From the NCBI RefSeq assembly GCF_003854935.1, contig NZ_CP033970.1:744001-808000 (forward strand): DNA of 64,000 bases, given 5' to 3'. Shown here piece by piece: positions 14,501 through 56,106 of this stretch (position 1 is its first letter; each line of letters begins with the position of its first letter). Under the pieces are notes generated by a model, which did not search any database, had not been told where the DNA came from, and saw only the letters and a list, made by a program, of their open reading frames with translations. The translations under genes and the position numbers were made by a program. Source of the DNA: Cupriavidus pauculus. Lineage in GTDB: Bacteria > Pseudomonadota > Gammaproteobacteria > Burkholderiales > Burkholderiaceae.

Positions 14501-14656
14501 AAGACCGTGCACATGGTGGGCATACCGCTGCACTGGGGCTTCACGGGGCTGACCAAGCCGGGCTTCCTGGCCAACACGCTCACGCCGTTCGTGGGCGACG
14601 GCAACACCCAGACGCCCGAGTTCAAGTCGTTCATGGTCAAGGTGGAAAGGGCATAG
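11588..14656 (+). CDS. fdnG: Formate dehydrogenase-N/O alpha subunit, selenocysteine-containing
   Basis: This 1022-residue catalytic subunit oxidises formate at a molybdenum bis-MGD/selenocysteine centre in the periplasm. A UGA codon at 12176-12178 is read as selenocysteine (residue 197) in the context ARV-U-HGPTV, which matches the active site of E. coli FdnG (Sec196); the same frame continues to 14656. A Tat signal ([10 protein letters not shown]) is at the N-terminus, and CPYCSVACG with a later LCPKG binds a [4Fe-4S] cluster. The ATG at 11588 sits 7 bases behind AAGGAGG; in-frame GTG 11582 and ATG 11597 are less well placed. It heads an operon with the beta and gamma subunits and fdhE, and the selenium genes follow. 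A program that stops at UGA will split it into two fragments. Confidence 0.97.
12176..12212 (+). promoter_or_regulatory. Bacterial SECIS element
   Basis: The UGA at 12176 is followed by a hairpin whose apical part is GGCA (12193-12196), loop GGTCT (12197-12201) and TGCC (12202-12205), with the lower stem pairing around it. A loop with GGUCU at this distance from UGA is the SelB-binding signature of E. coli fdhF and fdnG. It directs selenocysteine insertion. Confidence 0.88.
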
Positions 14657-14666
14657 GAGCGCAACG

Positions 14667-37401: not shown

Positions 37402-39063
37402 ATGTTCCGTTTTCGCCTGACGCTCGCCTTTGCCCTGCTCGTCGCCCTCGTCTGCATCCAGGCGGCGTTCGTTTATTGGGGCGCCAACCGCGTCAACGAC
37501 TACGCCCAGCACAGCCGGCTGGCCAACGACATCCTGGCCGAACTGCTGGACCTTTCCGCCAACAAGCAGCGGCTGCGCGTCTGGGCGTCGCAGCGGCTGA
37601 TGAACGCCGATGCCTCGCCCGAGGCCCGCGACCGCCTGCTGGCCAGCATGAAGCGCAGCGCCGGCCGGCTGCAGCAGCTTGCCCAGCGGGACATCGTGCT
37701 CTGGAACACCATCTCGGCGCTCGATGGCGTGCCCGTGCCGCCCGAGGTCAACGAACTGGCCGGCATGTCCGAACTGCTGGGCGACAACATCCGCGCCGTG
37801 GAAGGCCGCCTCGTGGCCCTGCAGCCCCTGCCGCGCGACGCCGACTTCGCGGGCGTCTGGAACGAGCTGAACGAGGTGTTCGACAAGGCGCGCGGCCGTG
37901 ACCTGCGCGAACTGCTTTACGGCGCCATCGAACGCCAGCGCGCCGCCGTGCCGGTGGCGCGGGCCGCCACCGAGCGCGGGCTGGACCGGCTGCGGACCCA
38001 GGCGTTCGTGATGGCCGCCGTGACGCTGCTGGCGGCCGTCGTGCTGGCGCTGCACCTGGGCCGGCGGCTCAAGCGGCCGCTGGACCAGTTGCTCGAAGGC
38101 GTCGGCGCGCTGCGTAGCGGGGCCCTCGACTACCGCCTGCCGATCCATTCCGGCGACGAATTCGGGCACGTCGCGGCCGGCTTCAACGCCATGGCCGCCG
38201 AGTTGCAGCAGCACCGGATCGACGCCGACGCGGCGCGCCGCCGGCTGGAAGAGGCGGTGCAGGCCCGGACGGCCGAGTTGAGTTCGGCGCACGAGACGCT
38301 CCAGCGCATCGACCAGCGCCGCCGGCAACTGTTTGCCGACCTGGGCCACGAGTTGCGCACGCCGACCACGGCCATTCGCGGCGAGGCCGAGATTGCGCTG
38401 CGCGGCGGCGAGAAGCCCGCGCACGAGTACCGGCAGGCGCTGCAGCACATCGTCGGCGCCGCCGAGCAACTGACCGGGCATATCAACGACCTGTTGCTGA
38501 TCGCGCGGGCGGAAGCTGACCAGTTGGTCATGCAGCCGCGCAGCGTGGCGCTGTGGCAGCTCCTGCAGGATTCCGCCGATTTTGCCGATGCGCTGGGGGC
38601 CGAGCACGACGTCAAGATCCAGCTCCAGGCGCCCGAGGGCGCCGACGGCCTCACCGTCATGGCCGATGCCGACCGGCTGCGGCAGGCCATCGTGATCCTG
38701 CTGGACAACGCCATCCGCTATTCGCCGCGCGGCAGCACGGTATGCCTGCGCGCGGCGGCCAGCGGCGACGGCGTGCGGATCGAAGTGGAGGACCAGGGCA
38801 TCGGCATCGACCCCGAGGAACTGGGGTCGGTGTTCGAGCGCTTCATGCGCGGCCGGCGCGCGCGGGCGCATCGGGCGGACGGCACCGGCATTGGCCTGTC
38901 GATTGCGCTGGCGATCGTGCGGGCCCATCATGGCAACCTTTCCGTCAGCGCCGCCGCGCCGCATGGCACCCGCGCCTGCATCGAGCTGCCGCCCGGGCCG
39001 CGCGCCGATGCCGCCGGCGCCGGCGCCACAGCCATCCCACACCATGAACATCCTGGTCATTGA
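37402..39063 (+). CDS. Sensor histidine kinase
   Basis: This 553-residue inner-membrane kinase has two transmembrane helices (about 7-28 and 203-222), with a helical periplasmic sensor between, HAMP at about 224-280, a coiled segment, then the DHp domain with phospho-acceptor His316 (LGHELRTP) and the HATPase with N box (LLDNAIRYSP), G1 (EDQGIGID) and G2 (GTGIGLSIA). The signal is unknown. The last 20 bases overlap the response regulator gene. The C-terminal tail is Ala/His-rich, probably a product of that overlap. Confidence 0.93.
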   Translation: MFRFRLTLAFALLVALVCIQAAFVYWGANRVNDYAQHSRLANDILAELLDLSANKQRLRVWASQRLMNADASPEARDRLLASMKRSAGRLQQLAQRDIVLWNTISALDGVPVPPEVNELAGMSELLGDNIRAVEGRLVALQPLPRDADFAGVWNELNEVFDKARGRDLRELLYGAIERQRAAVPVARAATERGLDRLRTQAFVMAAVTLLAAVVLALHLGRRLKRPLDQLLEGVGALRSGALDYRLPIHSGDEFGHVAAGFNAMAAELQQHRIDADAARRRLEEAVQARTAELSSAHETLQRIDQRRRQLFADLGHELRTPTTAIRGEAEIALRGGEKPAHEYRQALQHIVGAAEQLTGHINDLLLIARAEADQLVMQPRSVALWQLLQDSADFADALGAEHDVKIQLQAPEGADGLTVMADADRLRQAIVILLDNAIRYSPRGSTVCLRAAASGDGVRIEVEDQGIGIDPEELGSVFERFMRGRRARAHRADGTGIGLSIALAIVRAHHGNLSVSAAAPHGTRACIELPPGPRADAAGAGATAIPHHEHPGH

Positions 39064-39724
39064 AGACGACGCCCGCGTGGCCGATTTCCTGGTGCGCGGG
39101 CTGCGCGCGGAGGGCTATCTCGTCCAGCTCGCGCGCACCGGGCCCGAGGGGCTGGACATGGCGCGCCGCGGCGACGCGTCGCTGCTGCTGCTGGACCTGA
39201 TGCTGCCCGGCATCGACGGCCTGGAGCTGTGCCAGACGCTGCGCGCCGAGCGCAACCACGTGCCGATCCTGATCCTGACCTCGCTGAGCGACGTGGGCGA
39301 CCGCGTGGCCGGCCTGCGGCTGGGCGCCGACGACTACCTGACCAAGCCGTTCGCGTTCGAGGAACTGCTGGCCCGCATCGAGGCCCTGCTGCGGCGTGGC
39401 CGCGAGCAGCAGCCCATATCCCAGCAGCTACAGGTGGCGGACCTGGTGCTCGACCGCGACCGCATGCAGGTCATGCGCGGCGGCCAGGCCATCCCGCTGA
39501 CGGCCAAGGAGTTGGCCTTCCTGGAACTGCTGATGAGCGCGCCGGGCCGGGTGTTCAGCCGCGAGCGCATCCTGTCCAACGTCTGGGGCGCCAACGAGGA
39601 TCCGCTGACCAATATCGTCGACGTCTACGTGCGCCGGCTGCGCAGCAAGATCGACGACGGCCACGCGCTGCCGCTGCTCAAGACCGTGCGCGGGCTTGGC
39701 TACCGCATCGACGATGTACCCTGA
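39044..39724 (+). CDS. OmpR-family response regulator
   Basis: This 226-residue regulator has a receiver domain with acidic pocket (EDD at 7-9), phospho-acceptor Asp51 (LLLLDLMLPG) and Lys in TKPFAF, followed by a winged-helix output domain (LTAKELAFLELLMSAPGRVFSRERIL ... TNIVDVYVRRLRSKID). It resembles CopR/QseB-like regulators. It is translationally coupled to the kinase. Directly repeated 10-base sites with 11-base period lie about 30 bases after its stop and may be its own target. Confidence 0.94.
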   Translation: MNILVIEDDARVADFLVRGLRAEGYLVQLARTGPEGLDMARRGDASLLLLDLMLPGIDGLELCQTLRAERNHVPILILTSLSDVGDRVAGLRLGADDYLTKPFAFEELLARIEALLRRGREQQPISQQLQVADLVLDRDRMQVMRGGQAIPLTAKELAFLELLMSAPGRVFSRERILSNVWGANEDPLTNIVDVYVRRLRSKIDDGHALPLLKTVRGLGYRIDDVP

Positions 39725-39901: not shown

Positions 39902-40390
39902 ATGACATACGTTGGTGCCGCTTCCCTCGCCGCCGTTGCCGCAGGCGTTCTTCTCACCTCGCTGCCGGCCGCCGCGCAGTCCGCCGCGCAGCAAGCCTGC
40001 GCGCCCGCCACCCAGCAGCAGATCGCCAGCCTGTTCGACCGCTGGAACGACTCGCTGCGCACCGGCGACCCGGACAAGGTGCTGGCCAACTACGCGCCGG
40101 ACGGCGTGCTGCTGCCGACCGTGTCGAACCAGGCCCGCACCACGCCGGCCGCCATCAAGGACTACTTCATCAAGTTCCTGAAGTACAAGCCGCAGGGATC
40201 GATCGACGACCGCTTTATCCGCATCGGCTGCAACGTGGCCCAGGACGTCGGCAACTACACGTTCCGGTACGCCGACGGCAAGACCGTCCACGCCCGGTAC
40301 ACCTATGTCTATGAGTGGAAGGACGGCAAGTGGCTGATCGCCCACCATCACTCGTCGGCCATGCCGGAGCCGGTGACGGGGGCGAAGTAA
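39902..40390 (+). CDS. Exported SnoaL/DUF4440-like protein
   Basis: This 162-residue protein has a signal peptide (VGAASLAAVAAGVLLTSLPAAAQ) and a single cone-shaped NTF2-like domain (QQIASLFDRWNDSLRTGDPDKVLANYAPDGVLLP) of the CaMKII-association/DUF4440 (SgcJ/EcaC) type. Two cysteines, one near the mature N-terminus and one in IRIGCNVA, could pair in the periplasm. The function is unknown. It follows a two-component system whose probable tandem binding site lies upstream, so it may be its target. Confidence 0.8.
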   Translation: MTYVGAASLAAVAAGVLLTSLPAAAQSAAQQACAPATQQQIASLFDRWNDSLRTGDPDKVLANYAPDGVLLPTVSNQARTTPAAIKDYFIKFLKYKPQGSIDDRFIRIGCNVAQDVGNYTFRYADGKTVHARYTYVYEWKDGKWLIAHHHSSAMPEPVTGAK

Positions 40391-40413
40391 GCGATACCCT
40401 TGGCGCCCAGCGC

Positions 40414-42273
40414 TCAGGCCGGCGTGGCCGTCCTGAGCTTGTCTTCCCACAGCGCCTGGATGCGCTGGCCAAGGATCTCCGGGCGGCCCTTGAAGATCAG
40501 CCGCTCGATGGCCTGCGGGCCCGCCAGCTTGCCCTGCATGACCCGCCGCTCCTCGGCGCGCTCGATCATCCGCACGGCCGCCGCGATGTACTGCTCGGTG
40601 GACGTGGTGATCGTCCAGTCCGGAAAGCCGAGCCGGCGGAACATGCCCTCGTCGATATGCTCGTGGACCTCGGCGCCGGTGCGGCACACGCCCACCAGGC
40701 CCGACCAGACCGTATCGACGATTCCGTTGGTGTTGCCGAACGGGAACGGGTTCAGGAACATGTCGCAGTCCGCGATGACCGCCATGTAGTCGTCGTAGCT
40801 CTGGTGCTTGTGCACGATGGCCGACGGGCCGATGATCCGGCGCACCACGTTGCGGACCTGCGGGAACATCAGCCCCGTGGCCTGCCCCACCAGGAAGTGG
40901 AACTCCACCGGCACCTTGGTCGTCCGGGCAATCGCCGCGCAGGCCGCCAGGAACTTGGGATTGAGCTTGATCGTCGTGGCCGCCACGGCGACCTTGACGA
41001 CTTCGGTCGGCCGCGGCTTCCTTGCCGCGTCCAGGTCCAGCCGCAGCATCGCCGCCGGGGCCCGGTACGGCATGCCGTCCGGCGGCAGCTTGAGCAGCGT
41101 CTCGCTGAAGCACGCCTCGTCGCCGACGTAGTCTTCCTCGACCACCACGTAATCCATCGCATGGCCGTGGGTCGTGGCCGGATGGCCCAGCGCCATCAGT
41201 TGCAGCGGCGCGACGCGCAGGCTGGCCAGCAGCATCGTGATCGGGAACATGCCGACACTTGGCATGTAGGCCGCCTGGGCCTGGTACTTCTCGCTGGTGG
41301 CGCGCACGTGCGCGGCGTTTTCCCAGACGCTGCCGCCCTCCAGCGGCACGAACTCGTCGAACACGGCCTTGCCGGCGTCGTCCACACGATCCTCGTAGCC
41401 CATGCCGACCAGATGGAACTTGTCGCGCATGGCCACCATGGTCTGCGAATGGGTGCGGTAGATCGAATGGTTCTCGGAGAACCACTCCAGCACCACCAGG
41501 ATCACCGGCTTGCCCGACGCCGGCCGGGCCGCCGGGCGCGCCACGTCGGCCACGCCCAGCGACGCCAGCTTGCGCCGGATCAGCGTGTTGATCGGCTTCT
41601 TGATGTCGTGCTTGCCCGGCAGGTCGGCGTAGCTGCAGTGCATGTAGACGTCGTGCAGGATGGCCATCGGCAACTGATCGACGCTGTCCACCTCGGCCAG
41701 CCGCGGCGGCAGCCAGCGCAGCAGCAGCTCGCGCTTGGCGTGCGCCGACGGGGTGGCCAGGAAGCGCGACGACATGATCGCCAGCGCGAGGCCGGCCGCC
41801 AGCACCTTGTCGACGCCCCAGATCACGTCCCAGTCGAGCACGACTTCCGATTCCGGGAAATAGAACAACTGAAACTTCTGCAGCTCCGACGTGCGCAGTT
41901 GCAGCGCCGTGCGCGCCTCCTCGTCCGCGCCCAGCGTACGCAGGATGTGGTCGCCATTCCGGAACGGGCTGGCCGCGAACAGGGCCGCCAGCCAGCGCTG
42001 GTACTGGAGCAGCACGGCGGCCCCATGGTCCGAGAAGCGGAACGACGGATTGGCGACGAGGCTCGTGATGGCGGACGCCAGCCGCGTGAGCAGGTGGTCG
42101 TCCATGATGTCGAGCGCCTCAACCGATTGCGGCCACTCGTCGACGTCCATCAGCAGCCCGTAGTGGCGGTCGATGAGCTCCATCAGGGCCACCAGCTCGC
42201 GGCCGGCCTTTTCGTGCTCGCCGAGGTAGCACAGGTACTCGAACTTGTTGATGCTGAATTTTGTGATCGTCAT
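40414..42273 (-). CDS. HMW1C-like N-glycosyltransferase, second copy
   Basis: This 619-residue protein is the size of HMW1C (620). The N-terminal half is the helical all-alpha domain of the family, and the C-terminal half is a GT-B (GT41) domain with GHPATTHG, DYVVVEEDYVGDEACFSE, LPPDGMPYR, AATTIKLNPKF, NPFPFGNTNGIVD and EVHEHIDEGMFRRLG. The lysine in AATTxKLNP and the aspartate in GNTNGIVD correspond to UDP-sugar-binding residues known from the Actinobacillus enzyme. It should transfer glucose or galactose to Asn of N-x-S/T sequons in the cytoplasm before adhesin export. The start at 42273 lies behind GAGG. It is about half-way related to the copy at 44510. Confidence 0.93.
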   Translation of the reverse strand: MTITKFSINKFEYLCYLGEHEKAGRELVALMELIDRHYGLLMDVDEWPQSVEALDIMDDHLLTRLASAITSLVANPSFRFSDHGAAVLLQYQRWLAALFAASPFRNGDHILRTLGADEEARTALQLRTSELQKFQLFYFPESEVVLDWDVIWGVDKVLAAGLALAIMSSRFLATPSAHAKRELLLRWLPPRLAEVDSVDQLPMAILHDVYMHCSYADLPGKHDIKKPINTLIRRKLASLGVADVARPAARPASGKPVILVVLEWFSENHSIYRTHSQTMVAMRDKFHLVGMGYEDRVDDAGKAVFDEFVPLEGGSVWENAAHVRATSEKYQAQAAYMPSVGMFPITMLLASLRVAPLQLMALGHPATTHGHAMDYVVVEEDYVGDEACFSETLLKLPPDGMPYRAPAAMLRLDLDAARKPRPTEVVKVAVAATTIKLNPKFLAACAAIARTTKVPVEFHFLVGQATGLMFPQVRNVVRRIIGPSAIVHKHQSYDDYMAVIADCDMFLNPFPFGNTNGIVDTVWSGLVGVCRTGAEVHEHIDEGMFRRLGFPDWTITTSTEQYIAAAVRMIERAEERRVMQGKLAGPQAIERLIFKGRPEILGQRIQALWEDKLRTATPA

Positions 42274-42310
42274 GATCGGCCTCGCAGGAAAAGGATAGGA
42301 CAGTGGCACG

Positions 42311-42622
42311 TCAGGCAATCTTCGCGAGCACGAACATGCCCGCCATCGCCCCGCAGGCCAGGCCGATCAACCGGCCCAGCAGCATGTTGTTGAGTTCGTC
42401 GTCCAGCACGAACGGATAGCGCTCGCGCCAGTACGTACGCATCAGAATCGGACGCGGCAGGCAAATGCAGGCGGCGATGGTCACGCCAATCAGCAGATGC
42501 CAGATGTTCCGCCCTTCGTTCATCTCGGCAACGGGTATGACGGACAGCAGCAGCATCGCCACCACCGTCGTCACGACTGTCAGAAAGATGCCGGCAATCA
42601 GCCGGTCGACTGGATGTTTCAT
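42311..42622 (-). CDS. Small membrane protein of the adhesin locus
   Basis: This 103-residue protein has three hydrophobic segments (LIAGIFLTVVTTVVAMLLLSVI, IWHLLIGVTIAACICL, MLLGRLIGLACGAMAGMFVL) separated by short charged loops. I do not recognise it. The ATG at 42622 has AGGAGT upstream. It sits between the fusion gene and the second N-glycosyltransferase gene, 37 bases before the latter, and is probably cotranscribed. Confidence 0.65.
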   Translation of the reverse strand: MKHPVDRLIAGIFLTVVTTVVAMLLLSVIPVAEMNEGRNIWHLLIGVTIAACICLPRPILMRTYWRERYPFVLDDELNNMLLGRLIGLACGAMAGMFVLAKIA

Positions 42623-42703
42623 GATGGACTCCTTGGTCAATTCACCTGAAGGGTAGAGCCGTCCCTGACCGCATCGAATAGCAATTTCTTTAAACAATTG
42701 GCA

Positions 42704-44513
42704 TCAGATTCTGGGTTCGCCGACAGTCACCTGGCGTCTCTGCTTGTCTAGCATCAGACCGAGCAGTTCGCCGTTCATGCGGGCGATTACCTCGGGCACC
42801 TCGGCGCCCCAACGCTGGCGGAACAGCCGCATCGACGGATACCAGGGGCTGTCCTCGCCTTCGTAGAACCAGCGCCAGTCCGTGTAGAACGGCAGGAACA
42901 GCCACGTCTGCTTGCCCAGCGCGCCGGCCACGTGGGCGACCGAGGTATCCACCGTCACCAGCAGGTCGAGCGCCTGGACCGCCTGCGCCGTCTCGATCAT
43001 CGTCTGCACGCCGGCGCCGATGTCGTAGAAGTTGGGCAGGCGCCGCGCGTAATCGGCGGCCTCGTCGGCGCCGGGACCCTTCTGCAGGCTGTAGAAGTCC
43101 ACTTCCTGATGCGCGAACAGCGCGTCCAGCACCGAGAGCGACCGCAGCGAGCGTGCATGGTCGTTCTCGTGATTGGGCGCGCCCTTGAACACCACGCCCA
43201 CCTTCAGCGCCTCGGGCCGCCCCGGCAGGCTGGCCGCCTCCGGCACGCGCAGGAACGGCACCGTTTGCGGCAGGTTCGACACATCGACCGGCAGGTGGGC
43301 CATGATCGCGTGCGGATAGACCCAGAAATCGTGCGGCGCCAGGCTGGACGTGGCGTCCACGCGGACCACGTCGTCCGCCTCGCCCGACGCCTTGAACAGC
43401 TCGAAGATCGGTCCCTGGCACACCACGGTCACATGGGCGGCGCCACATTGCTCCCGCAGGACCCGGGCGAACCGCAGGAAGAAGATCTCGTCCCCGAGCC
43501 CGAACTCGCTCCAGATGACAATGCGCTTGCCCTCCAGCGGCTGGCCTGTCCAGGCCGGGGTGTTGGCCGGCGGCTGCGCCTTGGTGCGACGCTGCCAGTT
43601 GATGCGGGCGTACATCTGCTCGCGCAGCTGGAAGCCCTGGTTCAGGCGCCCGCTCTTGATGTAGTGGAGCATCTGGTAAAGCTGCGGATTCCATTCGCCA
43701 TGCAGGCGCTTCGTGGCCAGATCCAGCACGTGGTCGATTTCGTCCATCAGGCTCCAGCGCTGCGCCAGCATGATCGAGCGAAGGTAGGCCTGGAACCGGT
43801 ACGGATAGGTCGCGACGGCCTCGCGGCAGCAGCGCACGCAGTCGTCCGCGTTCTGGGCCGCGTTGGCGCGGCCGAGCAGGTCCTGGATGCCCGGCGCGGC
43901 GCGCTTGCGCAGCACCACCTCGATCACGCCCTCGACAAAGCGCCGCGTATCGGCCTCGCCGTTGGCTGGCGCCTCGCCTTCATGGTCCCGCACCAGCGCC
44001 ATCCGCTCGCACGACGCCACGCGCGAGAACAGCTGGATGGTGTCCAGCAGGTTCTGGGTGGTCGCGTCGTCGTGCGGTGGCTTGTAGATCGTGAAGCGCG
44101 CGCCGCCGCCCTGGCCGGACGACTGCGCCTTGGCATTCTTGCCGGGCATCGTCAGCCGGATGGTATTGCGCGGCGTCAGGAAGTCCTCGTCCGGCACGGT
44201 GAAGATCACATAGCCGCCGGGCTTTACCAGGTCCAGCCAGCGCGCCAGCGCCTTGTGCGGGTTGGCCAGGGTCTGCAGGCGCAGGCTGGCGTGGACGAAG
44301 TCGAGCGACTGTTCGTCGATGCCCGGCACCTCCTGCATGTCCGACGCCGACTTGCGCCAGGGTTTCACGTCCTGCACGCGCGGGAACCAGCCCGCGAACG
44401 TGGCCAGGCTCTCGCCCGCCCCCGCAGATATCCAGTCCCCGGCCGGCAAAGTAATGCTGCAGGAAGGCGGGGTCGTGCGAGCGCCGCAGCGCCGATTTGC
44501 TGAGTTCATTCAT
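42704..44513 (-). CDS. Methyltransferase-heptosyltransferase-like fusion, apparent frameshift
   Basis: Correcting one base gives a 602-residue protein. The N-terminus (MNELSKSALRRSHDPAFLQ) reads in one frame to GRGLDICGGG, and the continuation ESLATFAGWFPRV lies in another. One extra G in the G-runs (C-runs 44415-44417 and 44419-44423 on the plus strand) explains this. The first 160 residues form a SAM-dependent methyltransferase-like domain (LDxCGGGESL, SLDFVHASLRLQ, GGYVIFTVPDEDFL). A helical repeat region follows. The C-terminal half is GT9-like (GKRIVIWSEFGLGDEIFFLRFARVL, VDTSVAHVAGALGKQTWLFLP). It overlaps the upstream N-glycosyltransferase stop (ATGA). It may modify or extend sugars on the adhesin. 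Whether the frameshift is real or an error is open. Confidence 0.8.
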
Positions 44514-46363
44514 GATCTGTTCGCGTTCTCATTGGCAACCTGTTCCGACCACAGCGCATACATGCGCTCGCCCAGGATCTCCGGGCGGCCCTTGAAGATG
44601 TGCGTCTCGATGGCCTCTCGCCCGGCCAGCTTCGCCGCCAGCGCCTCGCGTTCCTCGTGGTTCTCGGCCATGCGGATCACGGCCGCCTTGTACTCGTCCA
44701 CGGTCTTGGCGATGGTCCATTCCGGGAATCCCAGCCGGCGGAACATGCCCTCGTCGATGTGCTCGTGCACCTCCCGGCCGGTCTTGCAGACGCCGACCAG
44801 CCCCGGCCAGACCGTATCGACGATGCCGTTGGTATTGCCGAACGGGAACGGGTTCGCAAACATCTGGCAGCTTGCGATGGTGTCCATGTAGACGCCGTAG
44901 CGCTGGTCCCGATGCACCACCGCCTTGTTGCCCATCACGCGCTGGATCATGTTGCGGACCTGCGGATACACCAGCCCGCTGCCCTGCCCCACCAGGAAAT
45001 GGAACTCCACCGGCACGCGCGCCTCGCGGGCAATCGCGCCGCAGGTCTCGATGAACCCCGGGTTGAGCTTCATGGTCGTGGCCGCCACGGCGATCTTGAC
45101 GACATCGGACGACCGGGCCGGCGGCTTTGGCGGCCAGGCCAGCAGGTTGGCCGACGGCCGGTAGGGCATGCCATCGGGCGGCAGCACCAGCAGTTGCTCG
45201 CTGAAACAGGCCGGATCGCCGACGTAGTCCTGCTCGACCACCACGTAGTCCATCGCCGGGGAATGGGTCGTCGCCGGATGACCCAGCGCCATGATCTGGA
45301 TCGGCGCGACGCGGAAGGCCGAGACGACCACGGTGACCGCGAACATGCCGACGCTGGGCATGTAGAACATCTGCGCCTGGTACTTCTCGCTGATGTCACG
45401 CACATGGGCGGCCGAGTTCCACACACCGTGGTACTGCAACTCGATGAACTCGTCGAACACCGCCCGGCCGGCGTCGTCCACCCGGTCACGGTAGCCCATG
45501 CCGACCACGTGGAACTTCCGGCGCATCAGGTCGATGGTCTGCGAATGGGTGCGGTAGATCGAATGGTTCTTCTGGAACGATTCCAGCACCACCAGCAGCA
45601 CCGGCTTCTTCCCGTCCTTCGGCGCCACGGCCTTGCGCTCGGTGTCATGCACGCCCATCCCCGCCAGCTTGCGGCGCACCAGCGTGCAGAGCGGCTTCTT
45701 GATGCTGTGCTTTTCCGGCGTGTCCGCGTAGCTGCAGAACATGTTGACGTCGTGCATGATCACATGCGGCAGCCGGTCGAGGTTTTCCACCTGGTCCAGG
45801 CGGCCGGGCAGCCATTCCAGCAGGAACTCGCGTTTCCGGTGCGCGGCGACGGTGCCCTGGAACCGCGGCGAGAGGATCGCCATGGCCAGCCCGCCAGCCG
45901 CGCCCTTGTCGAGCTTCCACAGTGCGTCCCAGTCAAGCTTGATTTCCGACTGCGGCAGGTAGAAGAGCTGGAACTTCCACAGGTCGGCCGGGTGGATGTC
46001 GAAGCTGTCGCGCGCCGTTTCGTCGATGCCCAGCGCCCGCAGGATGTGGTCGGCATTGCGGAACGGGCTGCTGGCAAAGATGCTCGCCAGCCAGCGCTGG
46101 TGCTTGAGCACCGATGCGCTGTCCTGCTCGGACATGTGGAAGTCCGGATTGGTCGCCAGCGCGGTGATCGCCGCGGCCAGCCGCGTCACCATATGCTCGT
46201 CGCGGATATTGATGGCCTCCGTCGACTGCTCCCATTCATCGAGGTGGCTGGTCTCGCCATAGCCATCGGCAATCTTCTGCAGCAACTCGCGCAGGCCGTT
46301 GAAGGCAATCGCGGGATCACTGCGATAACAGTGATGCTCGAACGTCGTGATATCGAATTTCAT
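44510..46363 (-). CDS. HMW1C-like N-glycosyltransferase, first copy
   Basis: This 617-residue cytoplasmic GT41 enzyme has the same two-domain layout as the copy at 40414: helical N-terminal domain, then GHPATTHSPAMDYVVVEQDY, LPPDGMPYRP, AATTMKLNPGF, HFLVGQGSG, NPFPFGNTNGIVD and VCKTGREVHEHIDEG. The key lysine and aspartate are present. In HMW systems such enzymes add hexoses to Asn of the adhesin before secretion. It lies directly after tpsB (54 bases) and overlaps the next gene by 4 bases, so it belongs to the adhesin operon. Confidence 0.95.
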   Translation of the reverse strand: MKFDITTFEHHCYRSDPAIAFNGLRELLQKIADGYGETSHLDEWEQSTEAINIRDEHMVTRLAAAITALATNPDFHMSEQDSASVLKHQRWLASIFASSPFRNADHILRALGIDETARDSFDIHPADLWKFQLFYLPQSEIKLDWDALWKLDKGAAGGLAMAILSPRFQGTVAAHRKREFLLEWLPGRLDQVENLDRLPHVIMHDVNMFCSYADTPEKHSIKKPLCTLVRRKLAGMGVHDTERKAVAPKDGKKPVLLVVLESFQKNHSIYRTHSQTIDLMRRKFHVVGMGYRDRVDDAGRAVFDEFIELQYHGVWNSAAHVRDISEKYQAQMFYMPSVGMFAVTVVVSAFRVAPIQIMALGHPATTHSPAMDYVVVEQDYVGDPACFSEQLLVLPPDGMPYRPSANLLAWPPKPPARSSDVVKIAVAATTMKLNPGFIETCGAIAREARVPVEFHFLVGQGSGLVYPQVRNMIQRVMGNKAVVHRDQRYGVYMDTIASCQMFANPFPFGNTNGIVDTVWPGLVGVCKTGREVHEHIDEGMFRRLGFPEWTIAKTVDEYKAAVIRMAENHEEREALAAKLAGREAIETHIFKGRPEILGERMYALWSEQVANENANRS

Positions 46364-46417
46364 AGCCGTCTTTCTCGAAAAGGGGCGCTTGGCGTGTTGT
46401 GCTTGCGTTGCGTTGGC

Positions 46418-48103
46418 CTAGTTCGCCCAGGACACGGATAGCCAGTACTGCACGGGTTTCTTGCCGGGGTCGACCCATGAGGTGGAGGAAAAGCCGTATG
46501 CCTTGGATACCGAGGCCGAGAACGTGGCGCCGAACGATGTCAGCCATTCCACGCTCAGGCCGTAGCCGGACAGGATGCGTCGGTTGGTGACACCGGGGAT
46601 GCCGACGTAGCCGGATTCCCAGCGGCTCCAGGGCTTGTGATTGACCTTGCCGATCGCGAAGTCCGAGAACAGGCCGAACTGGAGCTGATTGCCGGCGACG
46701 ATCGGCACGCGCTTGTGGACGCCGAGATTGAGGATCACGCCGTCATCGAACGACCCTTCGTCGGCCCGGTAGGCGCGCACGGCGCCGGGGCCGCCCACGC
46801 TGAGCTTCTCGCTGGGGTCCAGGTTGGTACTGGCGTACTGGCCGTTCGCGCGCCCGGACAGGAAGAAGTCGCCGCTGGTGTTCAGTGCATAGGTGCCGAA
46901 GGCCGACACGCCGAGCTTGCCGTAATGGTCCTTGCGATTGACCGCCGCGTCGGTGGCCGGGGAACTGCTGCGCCGACGGCCGGCCGTCAGGGCCACTTCG
47001 CCGCTCCAGATGTTGGTACGCAGTTGCTGCGCCCGGTCGCCATTGTTCCCCTGCAGCGAGAAGCGGAAGGCATCGAGCGTGCTGTGCGAGAACGCATTCT
47101 CGAAGTCGACATACGACGTCGACGTGCGGCTGTGCAGGTAGGAGCCGCCGACCCACACGTTGCGGTCGAGCCCGCGCGTGATGGGGTAGCTCAGCCCGAG
47201 CTGCGCGGTGTTGGCCACGCCGGCCAGCCGCGTGGAGGCGTTGATCGTGTACTGCTGGCGCGTGAAGCCGCCCGTAAGGCGCAGCCCGTCGTCGAAGATC
47301 GGGATGCTGCCGGTCAGCGACCCGGTCCACATGCGTTTCTCGGTGCCGGTCAGCGTCAGCGCGTAGCTTTCGCCCAGCCCGAAGAAGTTGTTGCCGGAGC
47401 CGGTCACGCCGAGTCGGGTGAGACCTGTTGCCTCGATACCCTGGTTGTCGATGAAGATGTCGCCGCTCAAGGGCTTGCCGCGCTGCTGCAGGCTGAACAG
47501 CACGTCGATGCCGCCCAGCGCGCCACCGGACGAGAACTGCGGCGCCTTGGCAATCGCCACGCCGGGCACGTCCTGCAGGAGCTGCGTGGTGCGTTCCAGC
47601 CGCGACGTCTGCAGTACGCAGACGCGGTCGAGCGTGTCGGCACCACAGAGTGCCTTCGTGATGAGCCGATAGAGCCGGGCATCCTTCACGCGCGACTTGT
47701 TGTCGATCTTGACTTCATGAATGCGGCCAGGAAAGGCCGTGAATTTCAGCGGCGCGCCTTGCCGGCTCGCCTGCCAGTCTGGCTCGGTCACGAGGACCTG
47801 GCCGACGGGATAGCCGCCCTGGCGCAACGCATTGGTGAGGCTGTCCGACCATTGCCCGACGGCTTCGAGGGTCGTCGGCGTGTCGCCCAGCGTGGCGGAA
47901 GCCTTGCGAAGAACGCCGACGATGTCGTCGTGTGCGCGGCTGCCCGCCGGGACGACGTCAAAGGCGACGTTGGCGGCGGCAATGCCAGTCTGCGTGATGG
48001 GTGGTGTTTCCGACTGCGCCTGCACAGGCGCGACGGCGATTAGCAGCGTGGTGCACAGGCAGCGCATGAGCATGCGCGTACGGCTGGCATGCTGCCGGAG
48101 CAT
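46418..48103 (-). CDS. TpsB outer-membrane transporter (ShlB/FhaC/HMW1B type)
   Basis: This 561-residue protein has a signal peptide (MLMRCLCTTLLIAVAPVQAQ), a POTRA-containing region (FTAFPGRIHEVKIDNKSRV, RLERTTQLLQDVPGVAIA) and a C-terminal 16-stranded barrel with the VRAYRADEG block in place of the common VRGYxE, ending in WLSVSWAN with a terminal aromatic/Asn. It should secrete the TpsA adhesin across the outer membrane. I chose ATG 48103; 48073 and 48067 are also possible, and an upstream frame to 48361 does not look like protein. It follows tpsA after 354 bases. Confidence 0.9.
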   Translation of the reverse strand: MLRQHASRTRMLMRCLCTTLLIAVAPVQAQSETPPITQTGIAAANVAFDVVPAGSRAHDDIVGVLRKASATLGDTPTTLEAVGQWSDSLTNALRQGGYPVGQVLVTEPDWQASRQGAPLKFTAFPGRIHEVKIDNKSRVKDARLYRLITKALCGADTLDRVCVLQTSRLERTTQLLQDVPGVAIAKAPQFSSGGALGGIDVLFSLQQRGKPLSGDIFIDNQGIEATGLTRLGVTGSGNNFFGLGESYALTLTGTEKRMWTGSLTGSIPIFDDGLRLTGGFTRQQYTINASTRLAGVANTAQLGLSYPITRGLDRNVWVGGSYLHSRTSTSYVDFENAFSHSTLDAFRFSLQGNNGDRAQQLRTNIWSGEVALTAGRRRSSSPATDAAVNRKDHYGKLGVSAFGTYALNTSGDFFLSGRANGQYASTNLDPSEKLSVGGPGAVRAYRADEGSFDDGVILNLGVHKRVPIVAGNQLQFGLFSDFAIGKVNHKPWSRWESGYVGIPGVTNRRILSGYGLSVEWLTSFGATFSASVSKAYGFSSTSWVDPGKKPVQYWLSVSWAN

Positions 48104-48333
48104 GGTTTCGATGGTTTTCAAGATTTTCCAGAACCGGTCGAGACATCTTGCATGTCCGATTCTGCTCAGAGAGCGTTCATGCAAGTCAGCGTAACGGCGC
48201 AGCGGCCACTGGCTAATAGCCGTTTTACGAAATCTCGACGTGGACCCGAGCGTTAGGCGCATACCCAGCATCTCCCACCCCATGCATGTGAGCGGAGTGT
48301 GGCAGGGAATGTGCGCGTTCGAAATGAAAATGG

Positions 48334-48376
48334 TCCGAATCAGTTTCCGCATCGACAGCATCGGAAACTGATCGGA
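48334..48376 (-). promoter_or_regulatory. Hairpin in the tpsA-tpsB gap
   Basis: The sequence TCAGTTTCC (48340-48348) pairs with GGAAACTGA (48363-48371) and the outer TCCGA/TCGGA extends it with one bulge. On the minus strand it is followed by ATTTTCATTT. It may attenuate transcription from the abundant adhesin gene into tpsB. Nothing else is clear in the 48104-48457 gap. Confidence 0.45.
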
Positions 48377-48457
48377 ACCGCTGGTTCTTGTTGAATGATT
48401 GGACCCATGGCGGGCGCCAATATGCCGGCGCCTTTCGACGCCGGCACATGGCTATCG

Positions 48458-51400
48458 TCAGCCGCCGATACCGCCTGCCGTACCCGGCGTAGCCGAGACG
48501 GTGGAGCTGGTGCTTGCTGCTGGCGCAGCGTCACTCTTCAACCAGCCGTGGCTCTTCACGACGTAGCGCTTGCCATTCGGCGCGCCGGCCTCGGTGTAGA
48601 AGAACTCGCGTGTCTCCATGTTCACCGCCAGATCGGCCTTGGTCTTGGTGACGGGGTCCTCGTAGACGAAGTGCTTCGTCCCGTTGGCGCCGTCCCGCAA
48701 CGTCAGCGTGCGCTCGACAGTCCCGGTCTTGGTCTTCACCTGGACCGTGGCCGTCGTGCCCTTCACCTGGACGGTGGCACCCGACATCAGCGCACCTTCC
48801 CACGCCTTGTCCTCATCGGACTCGACCGTCAGCGGCACCGGGGCATCGAGGTACCAGCTTGCGTCGGCCAGGTCGTCGATCACGTAGGCAAGGATACCGC
48901 CCGCGCCAACCGCGCCCATGATTGCACCGGCCGTGGCACCCGAGTTGGAGCCACCCGAGCCCGAACCACCGGAGCCGTCCGAACCACCGTCAGGCGTCTT
49001 GTCGCCGCCGTCGGAGCCGTTGCCACCGTTCGAGCCGTTACCGCCGTCGGAGCCGTTACCGCCGTCGGAGCCGTTGCCGTTGCCGTCGGGGCCGTTGCCG
49101 TTGCCGTCAGGGCCATTGCCGTTCCCATCGGGGCCGTTGCCATTGCCGTCCGGGCCGTTGCCGTTACCGTCGGGGCCGTTGCCATTGCCGTCGGGACCGT
49201 TGCCATTGCCGTCGGGACCGTTGCCATTGCCGTCGGGACCGTTACCGTTCCCATCGGGGCCATTGCCGTTCCCGTCCGGGCCATTGCCGTTTCCGTCGGG
49301 GCCGTTGCCGTTACCGTCCGGGCCGTTGCCGTTACCGTCGGGGCCGTTGCCATTGCCGTCGGGGCCGTTGCCATTGCCGTCGGGACCGTTACCGTTCCCA
49401 TCGGGGCCATTGCCGTTCCCGTCCGGGCCATTGCCGTTTCCGTCGGGGCCGTTGCCGTTACCGTCCGGGCCGTTGCCATTGCCATCGGGGCCGTTGCCAT
49501 TGCCGTCGGGGCCGTTACCGTTCCCATCGGGGCCATTGCCGTTCCCATCGGGGCCATTGCCGTTCCCGTCGGGACCGTTGCCATTGCCGTCGGGACCGTT
49601 TCCGTTCCCGTCGGGGCCATTGCCATTGCCGTCGGGGCCGTTGCCGTTCCCGTCGGGGCCGTTGCCGTTCCCGTCGGGGCCGTTGCCGTTCCCATCGGGG
49701 CCATTGCCGTTCCCGTCGGGACCGTTGCCATTGCCGTCGGGACCGTTTCCGTTCCCGTCGGGGCCATTGCCATTGCCATCGGGGCCGTTGCCATTGCCGT
49801 CGGGGCCGTTGCCGTTCCCGTCGGGGCCGTTGCCGTTCCCATCGGGGCCGTTACCGTTGCCATCGGGGCCGTTGCCATTGCCGTCCGGGCCGTTACCGTT
49901 CCCGTCGGGGCCGTTGCCGTTACCGTCGGGGCCGTTACCGTTCCCATCGGGGCCATTGCCGTTGCCATCGGGGCCGTTGCCATTGCCGTCGGGGCCATTG
50001 CCGTTCCCATCCGGGCCGTTGCCGTTACCGTCGGGACCGTTGCCATTGCCATCCGGGCCATTGCCGTTACCGTCGGGGCCGTTGCCGTTCCCGTCCGGGC
50101 CATTGCCGTTGCCGTCGGGACCGTTGCCGTTCCCATCGGGGCCGTTGCCGTTCCCGTCCGGGCCATTGCCGTTCCCATCGGGACCGTTGCCGTTGCCGTC
50201 GGGGCCGTTACCGTTCCCATCGGGGCCGTTGCCGTTACCGTCCGGGCCGTTGCCGTTGCCGTCGGGGCCGTTACCGTTCCCATCGGGGCCGTTGCCGTTG
50301 CCATCGGGGCCGTTGCCGTTCCCGTCCGGGCCGTTACCGTTGCCGTCCGGGCCGTTGCCGTTCCCATCGGGGCCGTTGCCGTTCCCGTCCGGGCCGTTGC
50401 CATTGCCGTCCGGGCCGTTGCCGTTGCCGTCGGGGCCATTGCCGTTCCCATCGGGGCCGTTGCCATTGCCGTCGGGGCCGTTACCGTTCCCGTCGGGACC
50501 GTTGCCATTGCCATCCGGGCCGTTGCCGTTCCCATCGGGGCCGTTGCCGTTACCGTCCGGGCCGTTGCCGTTCCCATCGGGGCCGTTGCCGTTACCGTCC
50601 GGGCCATTGCCGTTCCCGTCGGGACCGTTGCCATTGCCATCCGGGCCATTGCCGTTCCCATCGGGGCCGTTGCCATTGCCGTCCGGGCCGTTGCCGTTCC
50701 CGTCGGGACCGTTGCCATTGCCATCGGGACCGTTGCCGTTCCCGTCGGGACCGTTGCCATTGCCGTCCGGGCCATTGCCGTTCCCATCGGGGCCGTTGCC
50801 GTTGCCGTCTGGGCCGTTGCCATTGCCGTCGGGACCGTTACCGTTGCCGTCCGGGCCATTGCCGTTGCCGTCGGGACCGTTGCCGTTCCCGTCAGGGCCG
50901 TTGCCATTGCCGTCCGGGCCGTTGCCGTTACCATCCGGGCCGTTGCCGTTGCCGTCGGGACCGTTACCGTTACCGTCGGGGCCATTGCCGTTACCGTCGG
51001 GGCCGTTGCCATTGCCGTCTGGGCCGTTGCCGTTGCCGTCCGGGCCGTTACCGTTCCCGTCGGGGCCGTTGCCGTTACCGTCCGGGCCATTGCCGTTACC
51101 GTCCGGGCCATTGCCGTTACCGTCGGGACCGTTGCCGTTACCGTCGGGGCCGTTGCCGTTGCCGTCAGGACCGTTGCCATTGCCATCCGGGCCGTTGCCA
51201 TTGCCGTCGGGGCCGTTACCGTTGCCGTCGGGGCCGTTGCCGTTCCCATCGGGGCCGTTGCCGTTCCCATCGGGGCCGTTGCCATTGCCGTCCGGGCCGT
51301 TACCGTTCCCGTCGGGGCCGTTGCCGTTACCGTCCGGGCCATTGCCGTTGCCGTCGGGACCGTTGCCGTTACCGTCGGGGCCGTTACCGTTGCCGTCCGG

Positions 51401-54400
51401 GCCATTGCCGTTGCCGTCGGGACCGTTGCCGTTACCGTCGGGGCCGTTACCGTTGCCGTCCGGGCCATTGCCGTTGCCGTCCGGGCCATTGCCGTTGCCG
51501 TCGGGGCCGTTACCGTTCCCGTCGGGGCCATTGCCGTTCCCATCGGGGCCGTTGCCGTTGCCATCGGGGCCATTGCCGTTCCCATCGGGACCGTTGCCGT
51601 TGCCGTCGGGGCCATTGCCATTGCCGTCGGGGCCGTTACCGTTCCCGTCGGGGCCATTGCCGTTCCCGTCGGGACCGTTGCCATTGCCGTCAGGGCCGTT
51701 ACCGTTGCCATCGGGACCGTTGCCATTGCCGTCCGGGCCATTGCCGTTACCGTCAGTCCCGTTGCCATTGCCATCGGTAGGCGCGACGCGATCGCCGGTC
51801 AGGATGTGGATGGCACCGTTTCCGTTTACCCGCATGCGGCCTTCTAGCGCGTGGTCGCGGCCGTCGGGGGCGGCGCCCGTCAGGACGGCAGTACCGTTGC
51901 CGTTCACGGTAATGTTGCTGGTGGTGCCCACGCGCACGCCGATGCCCGCGTCACCGCCACCGCTGGAGGTGCCGGTAGCGTTCATGTAGGCGTTGTCGGT
52001 GATGTTGACGCCACCCTGGAAATGGACCCCTTCACGGTACCGCGAATCGCCAGTGATGTCGGTCTTCACGTTTCCAGAGAGATTCAGGCTGGAGTTGGAT
52101 GCGAAGCGCACGCCGGCTGAGGTGGCGGTGTTGGCGCGCGACGTGCCCGAAACGTTGATTCGAGCATCGTCAGTGGCGTTGATGACGGTTTGGATCAGTA
52201 CGCCGTCCTGGGTATCCGACTGGCCGGTCATGTCGACGGTCGCGTTTCCCGACATATTCAACGTACCTTGCCAACGTACACCGGCGGCCTTGGGTCCGTC
52301 GCCGTTGACTGTCAGCTTGCTGTCTCCGGACATGGATCCTTGGCCAAGGATACCCACGCCGGCCCATTCGGGATTCGATCCGTTACCGCTGCCGCTGAGA
52401 TTCAGCGTGGCATTGTTCTGCAGGTTATACCGAAGTGTGTCGAAGAATATGCCTGGCTCGTTGTTCGATGTACCGTTGAGATTCACCGCACCGTTGTCCG
52501 AGATATTGATAGACGTCGCACCGCAGGCTCGAATACCATCCGCGTAGTTGCCTACGCCGGTAATGTTGACGACCCCGTTGCCCGAGACCGAGATGCTGCT
52601 GGTCGCGTAATTGCCACCCAGGATCGTCACGCCTTGCGAGTCGATTCCTGAGCCCGTGGAGTGGCCTTCGATATCCAGCGAGGCGTTGTTGTTGACTGTA
52701 ATCTTGAGCGTGTTGAGACGGATGCCCGAGTACAAACGGCCCGTCGTGTTGCCAATCAAGCTGACGGCGGCATCATCATTGAGGGTAAGAACGCCGCGGT
52801 GCATGATGCCGTCGTAGCCGCCACCTTCCCCATGGATGACCAGTTGTGATCCTCCGGAGATCGTAAGGTTGGATCCGTTGTCAATATAGACGCCGGTCTG
52901 CGAGCGGGAACTGCCATAGATGGAAAGGCTGCCACCCACCTGCGTCAGGGCGGTGTTCATATACACGCCAGTGCTGCCGGCGCTAAAGCCGGTAATGGTG
53001 CCGCCGCCGATATTTGCCAGGGTGCCGCTTATGTTGATGGCATGGCCGCTTGAGGCGCTTGTCGTGTCCCCGTACGCCGTTAACCGTCCGCCATTCAAGT
53101 CGATGGTTCTGCCGCTTGCTTGGAAAACGGTGCCATATCCGCCGCCCATCCCCGAGGTCAGATTCAGATTCAGCGCATCGGAGGTGGACGTGATATTGCC
53201 GTTGAGGGTAATCGATCTGTTTGCCACCAGCGTGAGATTCGCCGCGCCGCCGCCGGTCTTTGTAATGTCGGCACCGGTGTTCTGCACGATGTTCCCGGTC
53301 GCCGTACCTGAGCTGCCCGTGGTGATCGTGACGTCGGTGCCTGCGTTCAGGGCGTCGTTGATGGACGTGTTGCGAACCGTGGCGGTGCTGCCCGTGGGCG
53401 TGAAGCCACCCGAGACGCTACCGCTGTAGCCAGCATCGTTACCTGTGCCGATGGTGATGTTGGTCGGATCGATCAACCATTCGCCAGACTTGCCGTTCGG
53501 CGCTGAGGCAGTGATCGTGCCCTGGACGTTGAGGTCGTGGGCTGACGTCTCCACGAACCCGCCATCGCCATGCCGTGCACCCGCATCGACCCGCGCGTTG
53601 ACACCCACCTGCGTGAAGTTGGCAAAACCAGCACCGTCCTGCAGCAGCTTGCGTGCTTCGGTGCCTTCCAGCTTGCCGAGCGAGTCACCACCAAGGATGA
53701 CCTTGCCGCCAGCCGAGTCGCCCGAAGCGTCGATCGAAGCGCTGTCGAACAGGCCGACGCGGTCGCCGGCCAGTACCACCGTGCCGCCTGGCCGCCGTTG
53801 CGGTTGGAGGCGTCGATGCGGCCGGTCATGACCACGTCACCGGTCTTGCCAGCATCGGCCACGACCGTGCCGGCGCGGACCACGCCGGACAGGTTCACCA
53901 CCGTATTGAGCAGCGTGTCCTTGCCGCGCGCGGTAATGAGGACCGTGCCGTCTTGTGCATGGATGTTGCCGCTGTTTTCCGCCAGCGCGTTGGCGGTGGC
54001 GTCGTTGAGGACGAGGGAAATGCCCTGGCCGTTGTGCAGGGCCACCGTGGCGCTATCGCCAGCGGCCAGCAGGACTTGGCCGCCCGGGCCGGTCTTGATG
54101 TCGCCCGCGTTGCGGACCTGGTCGCCCATGAAGGTCACATAGCCTTGGGCGTTGATCGAACCTTCGTTGATGATGCCGGCCTGCGTGCCGGTGGCACTCA
54201 GTGCCAGCGGGCTGCCGGCCATGAAGGCGTTGGAGTCGATGGACTTGGTGGTGGCCAGCAGCGAGCCGACGTTCACCACTGCGCCTCGGCCGAACAGCAC
54301 GCCGTTGGCGTTCTGGATCAGCACCTGCCCGTTGGCGAGCAGCGAGCCGTGGATATTGGAGGGGAGGCCACCCGTGACCCGGTTCAGCGCCTGGGCCTGT

Positions 54401-54762
54401 GCGTTGGGCTGGTTGAACTGGACCGTATTGCCTTGGCCGATGCTGAAGCTGTTCCAGTCGATGACAGCGCGCTGGCTGCCCTGATTGATGGTCATCGTCG
54501 AGCCATTGGGCTGCGAGATGGTGGCCTGGCCGGCCACGACGTTGCCCTGGGTCGGGAGTCCTTGGGCACGGGCTTCGTCCATGTCCCAGGCAAACAGGGC
54601 GAGGGCGATGGCCGTCATCGCCGATACCACGCCCAGTTGGGGCGATGCCTCCGCAGCGGCGCCTTCACCAGGCGCCTTGCCGCGGCTCTTCACATTTTCC
54701 GCAACGGCCACAAGCATGCCGAGATGCTTGCTGAATACGCGGCGATACCGATTCTTGTTCAT
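48458..54762 (-). CDS. TpsA two-partner-secretion adhesin with 129 heptapeptide repeats, apparent frameshift
   Basis: With one base restored the product is about 2101 residues. The N-terminus is an extended signal peptide (MNKNRYRRVFSKHLGMLVAVAE, then a hydrophobic stretch). The TPS/haemagglutination domain at about 68-330 shows QALNRVTGGLPSNIHG and QNANGVLFGRGAVVNVGSLLA. After RNGGQ the frame changes near 53787-53789; restoring one G gives GGTVVLAGDRVGLFD, as expected of the family. A right-handed beta-helix rich in N-x-S/T follows to about residue 990, then 903 residues of PDGNGNG-type repeats, NGSDGG units, a glycine-rich hydrophobic segment (GAIMGAVGAGGILAYVI) and a C-terminal domain of about 150 residues that I do not recognise. 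It is the cargo of the TpsB at 46418 and the probable substrate of the glycosyltransferases. Confidence 0.9.
49070..51778 (-). repeat. 129 tandem 21-base repeats coding for (T/P)DGNGNG
   Basis: The 2709 bases equal exactly 129 units of 21. In protein order the first two units are TDGNGNG and the rest PDGNGNG, without any amino-acid change. Codon third positions vary (GGC/GGG/GGT/GGA, AAC/AAT, GAC/GAT, CCC/CCG). Blocks of seven units recur with a spacing of 147 bases, for example 49235 and 49382, and 49568 and 49715. The translated array is acidic, has 258 Asn and no hydrophobic residue, and would be an extended stalk. Long reading frames on the other strand here are a by-product of the repeat. 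Confidence 0.97.
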
Positions 54763-55458
54763 GACTGCTTGCTCTCTATTTCTCAGAACCCTGCTGCATC
54801 TGGCAGCGACCCAACTCGCAGGCGTTGCCCGCCTGCAGAGGCGGCGGTAAGGCCTGGTGTCTCGTTCTGGAAGCGGAGGCCGTCGGTGCCGGAAGGGCAG
54901 GACGGACGAGTTCCGCTACTCCACGCACCGAATCGTATGAGCGCGTGGAGCGAGCAAAAATCGTAAAAACTCTAAAGATGGGGATCTGAGAGAAAATCAG
55001 ACGGCGGCGAATGGGTCGCCTGATTTGAATGCGGGAAATAAAATAGTAATTCGACTAAAACGTGGGACAGGTCCTCAAGAAACGCCCAGATCGGCCCGAC
55101 ATCGGCCGTCCGCCAGGGCAGCGCGAATTGCGACCTTGCGCGTCACATCTGAAAAAGAAAATAGAAAAGTTTCCATCCCGCAAAAGATGACGAGTCCTTA
55201 GGCTTCGTCTGGACCGCGTGGCGTCCAGCCGGATCGCCAATCAGAATCTGCCTACGCCTTCCTGATGCTTGCGGTATCGGCCGGGCGGCCCCGCCCGCCG
55301 CGGCGCCATCGCCGGTCCTACGCCAGACTCCCTTCCGCTGCCTTGCCGCAGCAGACCCACCGCATGCCAAGCGTGCCGATCCCCAATGGCCTGGCGATTC
55401 GCCAGCGATGCTTTCCATGCGGCCGCCGCCCTCATCCGAAAACTCTGGGAAACGCACT
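54763..55458. other. Divergent regulatory region between tpsA and a response regulator gene
   Basis: This gap of 696 bases has no convincing gene. It contains AT-rich stretches at about 54955-55060 and 55144-55175 in otherwise GC-rich DNA, as expected for the tpsA promoter, but I cannot assign exact boxes. Confidence 0.5.
54994..55026. promoter_or_regulatory. Inverted repeat upstream of tpsA
   Basis: AAATCAG (54994-55000) and CTGATTT (55020-55026) are perfect arms; GCG/CGC lies inside. It is about 230 bases upstream of the tpsA start and may bind a regulator such as the divergent NarL-type protein. Confidence 0.3.
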
Positions 55459-56106
55459 ATGCCCACCATACGCGTCATGCTCGCGGACGATCACCCATTC
55501 ATCGTGTTCGGCGTGCGGGAGATATTAAGCCGGCAACTGGGCTTCAGCGTGGTCGCCGAGGCGGCCAATCCGCCGGGATTGATGGATAACCTGTCCCGCA
55601 TCGAGTGCGACGTGGTGATTACCGATTTCTCGATGCCGGGCAGCGGCGTGCCCGACGGGCTGGTCCTGCTGAACGCCATCCGCGCCAAGTTTCCGGCGGT
55701 GCGGATCGTGGTGCTGACGATGCTGGACAACCCCGGGCTGTTGCTCAGCATGCGCCGGGCCGGCGCGCTGGCCTTGCTGAACAAGCGCGACGACATGCGC
55801 GAGCTGCCCGCCGCCGTGATTGCCGCCTTCCAGGGGCGCGAGCATCTGGGCGCGACGATGCGGCGGGCCATCACCCGGCCCGGCCCCGGCACGTCGCAGA
55901 ACGGGTCGCTGGACACGCTGAGCCCGCGCGAGATGGAAGTGCTGCGGCTCTATGTCGGCGGCATGACCACGTCGGAAGTGGCCCGGCACCTGAACCGCAG
56001 CATCAATACGGTCAGCACGCAGAAGCACAGCGCCATGCGCAAGCTGGGGGTCAAGAACGACGCCGAGCTGTTCGACTATGCGTCCGAGCACGGGCTGCGG
56101 GCGTAG
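55459..56106 (+). CDS. NarL/FixJ-family response regulator
   Basis: This 215-residue regulator has an N-terminal receiver with ADDHPFIVFGVREIL, phospho-acceptor Asp56 (ITDFSMPG) and Lys in LLNKRDDM, then a LuxR-type helix-turn-helix (LSPREMEVLRLYVGGMTTSEVARHLNRSINTVSTQKHSAMRKLGV). The block resembles RcsB/BvgA-like regulators. No histidine kinase gene is adjacent. It is divergent from tpsA and could control it. The ATG at 55459 follows GGGAAA. Confidence 0.92.
   Translation: MPTIRVMLADDHPFIVFGVREILSRQLGFSVVAEAANPPGLMDNLSRIECDVVITDFSMPGSGVPDGLVLLNAIRAKFPAVRIVVLTMLDNPGLLLSMRRAGALALLNKRDDMRELPAAVIAAFQGREHLGATMRRAITRPGPGTSQNGSLDTLSPREMEVLRLYVGGMTTSEVARHLNRSINTVSTQKHSAMRKLGVKNDAELFDYASEHGLRA

Follow-up and report, generated by a model that had tools for sequence, protein, structure and literature searches.

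The window analysed here is a 64,000-nucleotide stretch of Cupriavidus pauculus (contig NZ_CP033970.1), from a 6.18-Mb genome in four contigs. Its minus strand carries, at 40414-54762 and in transcription order, tpsA, tpsB, HMW1C-1, a methyltransferase-like/GT9 fusion gene (hereafter FUS), a gene for a small membrane protein, and HMW1C-2 (Table 1). All six genes were confirmed, and the reading frames and domain matches bore out the order, strand, and coordinates given in an earlier note on this DNA. That note had called the cassette complete, which holds for the gene content but not for the frames, as tpsA and FUS are each split over two frames here. A TpsA with ESPR and two-partner secretion (TPS) domains, TpsB, and an HMW1C adjoin one another, as expected of HMW-type two-partner secretion, and the locus is an HMW-type locus in a new form. 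The FUS start and the HMW1C-1 stop overlap by 4 bp. Alignment to relatives placed the probable starts of tpsB, the membrane protein gene, and HMW1C-2 further in, at about 48103, 42622, and 42273, respectively.

Table 1. Features of the six-gene locus, in transcription order (positions in the window).
Feature	Position	Strand	Description
tpsA, first part	53473..54762	-	ESPR signal (PF13018, 47.8 bits) and TPS domain (PF05860, 115.9 bits) by Pfam
tpsA, second part (other frame)	48458..53779	-	Helix of about 675 residues with 29 sequons, heptad array, C-terminal domain
DGNGNGP array	49088..51754	-	127 perfect heptads; 21-bp units, 46 distinct DNA units; zero sequons
tpsB	46418..48361	-	Outer-membrane pore; Pfam ShlB, 57.8 bits
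HMW1C-1	44510..46363	-	Diverged HMW1C-like transferase; Pfam HMW1C_N, HMw1_D2, Glyco_transf_41
FUS	42704..44513	-	Methyltransferase-like part, helical solenoid, and GT9-fold enzyme, from the model of an intact relative
Small membrane protein	42311..42697	-	Three hydrophobic stretches
HMW1C-2	40414..42318	-	Pfam HMW1C_N and HMw1_D2

On the window FUS, Pfam returned a methyltransferase domain and a sub-threshold GT9 match (PF01075, 16.2 bits against a gathering score of 22 bits), while four relatives scored 23.8, 26, 29.2, and 17.5 bits. The N-terminal part showed both the domain and the fold of a class I methyltransferase dependent on S-adenosylmethionine (SAM), and the C-terminal part showed the GT-B fold of GT9. 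In a fold comparison, in which a missing fold is not thereby excluded, the glycosyltransferase domain had a heptosyltransferase/TibC-like fold; the heptose-type step envisaged in the earlier note therefore keeps a hint at the level of fold, and nothing beyond it. TibC carries a multi-Cys iron site. Only one Cys (C354) was invariant among 26 FUS proteins, indicating that such a site is not conserved in FUS, which does not qualify as an autotransporter heptosyltransferase (BAHT). The glycine-rich SAM loop, which we take to be motif I of class I methyltransferases, was kept in several Paraburkholderia sequences and was degenerate in Cupriavidus U2, D384, and 25mfcol4.1 and in the flagellar sequences. 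The frame break of the window FUS is located at this loop, and the loop's GAG is shifted by one residue in P0161, a protein of the window's own FUS lineage. Since the loop is degenerate in many members, methylation by FUS, a further step of the earlier proposal, is doubtful in general, though it may occur in the window's own lineage. Among the open-licence papers listed by our searches, no title or abstract described a methyltransferase-GT9 fusion beside HMW1C.

The gene order was sought in related genomes, as the earlier note had suggested, and tpsB-HMW1C-fusion was found there. FUS accompanied HMW1C in 24 of the 38 named loci examined, and in 23 of the 38 it immediately followed an HMW1C gene or a piece of one. 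This position agrees with an explanation in which FUS extends glycans: HMW1C would set the Asn-glucose, and the GT9 part would lengthen it, as agt of the ngt operon does, with HMW1C-1 as a further member of the chain. The second enzyme of the ngt-agt operon builds glucose polymers on N-glucose (excerpt of PMC5303269). Against this explanation, FUS was found directly behind flgK-flgL in 5/38 loci (L104, L105, L106, L107, and L109), and two such genomes had no HMW1C above weak background, suggesting that FUS probably acts on proteins itself and giving a hint of flagellar protein glycosylation by the FUS family. The layout of solenoid plus GT-B also resembles that of the protein-acting OGT, which was the top Foldseek match with a TM-score of only 0.24-0.27. 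Extension is a real possibility, short of an even chance, and is nearly as likely as the reading that we prefer, in which FUS, whose GT9 fold is joined to a helical solenoid, would place its own sugar directly onto protein and not just lengthen an N-glucose. Homologues of the small membrane protein follow FUS in the Cupriavidus relatives. Cupriavidus agavae (L085 and L108) has two FUS copies, each at a contig end; behind one of these copies come the membrane protein gene, tpsB, and the start of an HMW1C.

HMW1C-1 and HMW1C-2 are the only full-length HMW1C-like genes in the genome; a third match reached 22 bits. Among 61 genomes of the genus, including that of the window, full-length HMW1C was found in five, two copies occurred only in the window's genome, and three further genomes had fragments or broken copies. 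The two products are 61% identical, and both passed the Pfam cut-offs for HMW1C_N and HMw1_D2 (54.8 and 80.9 bits for HMW1C-1; 74.8 and 91 bits for HMW1C-2). Because they scored 651 and 661.7 bits with NCBIfam NF049992, the equivalog of UDP-glucose:protein N-beta-glucosyltransferase, which calls for at least 1000 bits, both were filed as HMW1C-like and not as the equivalog. In a tree of 94 sequences (quick IQ-TREE run, with support from the Shimodaira-Hasegawa-like approximate likelihood-ratio test only), HMW1C-2 joined P0018 (98) and then the single HMW1C of Cupriavidus relatives (98, 9 rows). HMW1C-2 is, as judged from sequence, the counterpart of the single HMW1C of the sister species. HMW1C-1 clustered only with the metagenome proteins P0002 and P0003 (100, stem 0.75), and this separate old clade rules out a recent tandem duplication. 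P0003 and the FUS protein P0139 likely come from one contig, as they share their source and a longest contig of 11371 bases.

We compared 21 substrate-residue positions in AaNGT numbering, mapped from the alignment. The one position at which HMW1C-2 differed was Ser495 (Gln, which 131 of 134 others also have), and HMW1C-1 additionally had Asp for His494, Asn for Tyr217, and Phe for His219; the Tyr217 site is Tyr in P0002 and P0003. In AaNGT, His494 stacks on uracil, and Arg177, His214, and Asp215 bind the peptide (excerpt of PMC10507012); His219, Tyr217, and His271 are unnamed in the AaNGT text. Both copies kept the Arg, His, and Asp of acceptor-peptide binding. The HMW1C-1 clade had 15 specific columns, defined as uniform within it and occupied by a different residue in at least 80% of the other sequences, and these included the His494 and His219 sites. 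The altered nucleotide pocket makes another donor or other sites likely, and HMW1C-1 is strongly diverged and has likely changed its job. The idea of the earlier note that one copy initiates and the other extends found no direct evidence, both copies having retained the peptide-binding residues.

HMW1C-1 might instead be a redundant N-glucosyltransferase that shares donor and sites with HMW1C-2 and has been retained to raise the dosage on an adhesin rich in sites. Most substrate-binding residues of AaNGT, including the three that bind peptide, are present in both copies, and five of the 38 named loci also have two HMW1C genes beside FUS, in an order other than that of the window. The age and separateness of the HMW1C-1 clade and its specific columns, including the His494 site, argue against redundancy, as does the window adhesin, which is poorer in sequons than sister adhesins served by one HMW1C. 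Redundancy, too, is a real possibility short of an even chance. The earlier note had regarded two HMW1C genes plus a fusion as a departure from the classical locus; the combination is present here, but the pair of HMW1C genes is not unique, given the five loci. As another link between HMW1C and methyltransferases, fusions of an HMW1C-like enzyme with a methyltransferase domain of FkbM type (PF05050) were seen in P0049, P0050, P0053, P0055-P0057, and P0061-P0063, with annotations in Burkholderia cepacia, Desulfobulbus, and Novosphingobium among others.

The window TpsA has a helix of about 675 residues, related to TpsA proteins of Burkholderiaceae, followed by the perfect DGNGNGP heptads. The helix contained 29 N-X-S/T sequons, compared with 13.2 ± 3.1 expected from 1000 shuffles (maximum 23). 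The first 325 residues of TpsA had 2 (3.8 expected), the C-terminal part had 5 (1.8 expected; shuffle maximum 6), and the DGNGNGP array had none. In the array, all 14 first and second codon positions were invariant in 127/127 units, while all seven third positions varied; the other two minus-strand frames would encode 46 and 44 different peptides. Variation confined to third positions is strong evidence that the frame of the array was translated and selected. All but one of the six frames are open across the array, a by-product of the repeat unit. The array as a standard N-X-S/T substrate was ruled out, being without Ser or Thr. EtpC uses non-sequon Asn (excerpt of PMC11463764), and by analogy low-fidelity glycosylation of the array is possible. 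Among the 58 loci L063-L120, none had more than two DGNGNG in one frame. The C-terminal domain of the window protein (48458-49087), which had no Pfam match, is common to the C-termini of L084, L087, L114, and L118 (...RDGA.G.KH...KADLSVN...FFYTE...SHGWLK).

In the TpsA of Cupriavidus sp. U2 (L084, 1-5967), an array of 27-residue turns averages 4.47 sequons per turn, and a stretch of consecutive NGS tripeptides comes after it. The array of turns held 269 sequons in 1625 residues, compared with 113 ± 7.6 in shuffles (maximum 136) and 201 for the mirrored motif. Three sequons were kept in 37/37 in-register units, and the +2 position swapped Ser and Thr in two of them, a pattern in the sequence that suggests selection for glycosylation sites. 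In P0073, P0074, and an open reading frame that matches both (L094, 8116-9993), an ESPR/TPS adhesin start is joined in-frame to the later part of HMW1C, and in P0210 such a start is joined in-frame to the GT9 part of FUS.

In tpsA, the frame of the ESPR/TPS part differs from that of the remainder, with the change at about 53,77x-53,83x according to the sequence and a scan based on GC content at third codon positions; the HMW-type locus therefore lacks an intact tpsA frame in the current assembly, in which an error is possible. In FUS, the first 31 or so residues lie in another frame than the remainder, and the change falls in a G-rich stretch near 44,42x. The frame scan, which is blind to changes close to gene starts and some of whose signals are possibly false, gave one candidate in the window (tpsA) and 13 others in 400 kb of the same contig. 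P0161 (602 aa, 10 member sequences) is a single-frame protein 99% identical to the window FUS. A near-identical intact TpsA was not found with a length-limited helix query, which scored only the 7988 candidates that had the most words in common with it; the best reached 49% identity. Assembly errors, recent decay, or switching may account for the breaks. Among the loci compared, the TPS domain most similar to that of the window (85.6%) was that of Cupriavidus sp. EM10 (L186, about 12400-15159), whose tpsA is frame-broken elsewhere.

A promoter/terminator scan yielded fewer sites than shuffled sequences (1 versus 2.1; 3 versus 12.4), and such counts neither indicate nor exclude an operon promoter. 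Rfam gave zero matches across 40000-56000. Inspection by eye placed a sensor kinase/response regulator pair and a LuxR-type response regulator at the flanks, one on each side (37402-39724 and 55408-56106).

Based on gene order, domains, conserved residues, and gene trees, from which the enzyme roles are inferred, we tentatively propose, at somewhat less than an even chance, that TpsA, TpsB, and three glycosyltransferase-type enzymes work together and that at least two kinds of sugar are placed on TpsA in the cytoplasm before export. HMW1C-2 would be the initiating N-glucosyltransferase, transferring hexose onto the N-X-S/T sites of the helix. HMW1C-1 would act as a separate paralogue with its peptide-binding residues kept and with another donor or other sites, FUS would add its own sugar, and TpsB would export the decorated adhesin, in which the DGNGNGP array, free of standard sequons, would form a stalk. 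Initiation by HMW1C-2 and export by TpsB follow established knowledge of the HMW1 system (excerpt of PMC3983070), and the other steps are conjectural. The gene content supports a multi-enzyme glycosylation locus. The several-enzyme glycan assembly of the earlier note survives insofar as a TPS adhesin locus with several transferase-type enzymes is present, with its methylation step in doubt. It is conceivable, if unlikely, that FUS founds a new class of protein-directed transferases that in Burkholderiaceae modify secreted helix adhesins as well as the hook proteins of flagella, and that HMW1C-1 is a neofunctionalised N-glycosyltransferase whose nucleotide pocket has changed, so that one adhesin would receive two or three kinds of sugar from separate cytoplasmic enzymes.

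Three points temper the proposed multi-enzyme decoration of TpsA. The mirrored sequon motif was likewise raised in the helix (21), and part of the sequon excess is therefore due to helix periodicity; the long stem of HMW1C-1 could come from relaxed constraint instead of a new role; and the breaks in tpsA and FUS may keep this strain from making full products, unless they reflect assembly errors or can be reversed. That the locus is decaying in this strain, with no full product made, would fit the frame changes in both genes, broken or partial copies in relatives (e.g. G168, G191, G237, L110, and L112), and the change at another place in tpsA of EM10, but we consider it rather unlikely, since the absence of amino-acid changes over 127 heptads indicates selection until recently, a near-identical single-frame FUS exists in P0161, and the 13 further signals on the contig make assembly indels plausible too.

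To our knowledge, the HMW1C systems described so far rely on a single enzyme, which attaches one or two hexoses to Asn. With a conserved partner enzyme, a second HMW1C clade whose nucleotide pocket is altered, and sequon-array adhesins, bacterial cytoplasmic protein glycosylation would be richer than described, and glycoengineering would gain further variants of N-glycosyltransferase as well as a protein transferase of GT9 type. With FUS in adhesin loci and behind flgK-flgL, its acceptor is directly testable.

Like the window, the HMW1 locus of Haemophilus influenzae (hmw1A-hmw1B-hmw1C) has adjoining tpsA, tpsB, and HMW1C-like genes, with a sequon-poor TPS part. HMW1C-like genes beside tpsA/tpsB are also in print for Burkholderia (excerpt of PMC3983070). 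Two HMW1C clades, FUS, the small membrane protein, and the heptad array are extra in the window, and none of them is described in the excerpted text of that review. EtpA/EtpC of enterotoxigenic Escherichia coli likewise pairs a helical TpsA adhesin with an HMW1C-like enzyme that modifies many N-hexose sites, and 96 of 166 analysed Asn in EtpA were canonical (excerpt of PMC11463764); by comparison, the U2 array alone has 269 sequons, and the window combines a helix with 29 and a sequon-free array. The ngt-agt operon of Actinobacillus pleuropneumoniae likewise joins an NGT to a second co-operonic transferase; it has no adhesin or transporter beside it, and its second enzyme is an alpha-6-glucosyltransferase (excerpt of PMC5303269), whereas FUS combines a GT9-like fold with additional domains. 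Compared with TibC, which acts in autotransporter O-heptosylation, FUS is distinguished by its N-terminal methyltransferase-like part and its solenoid.
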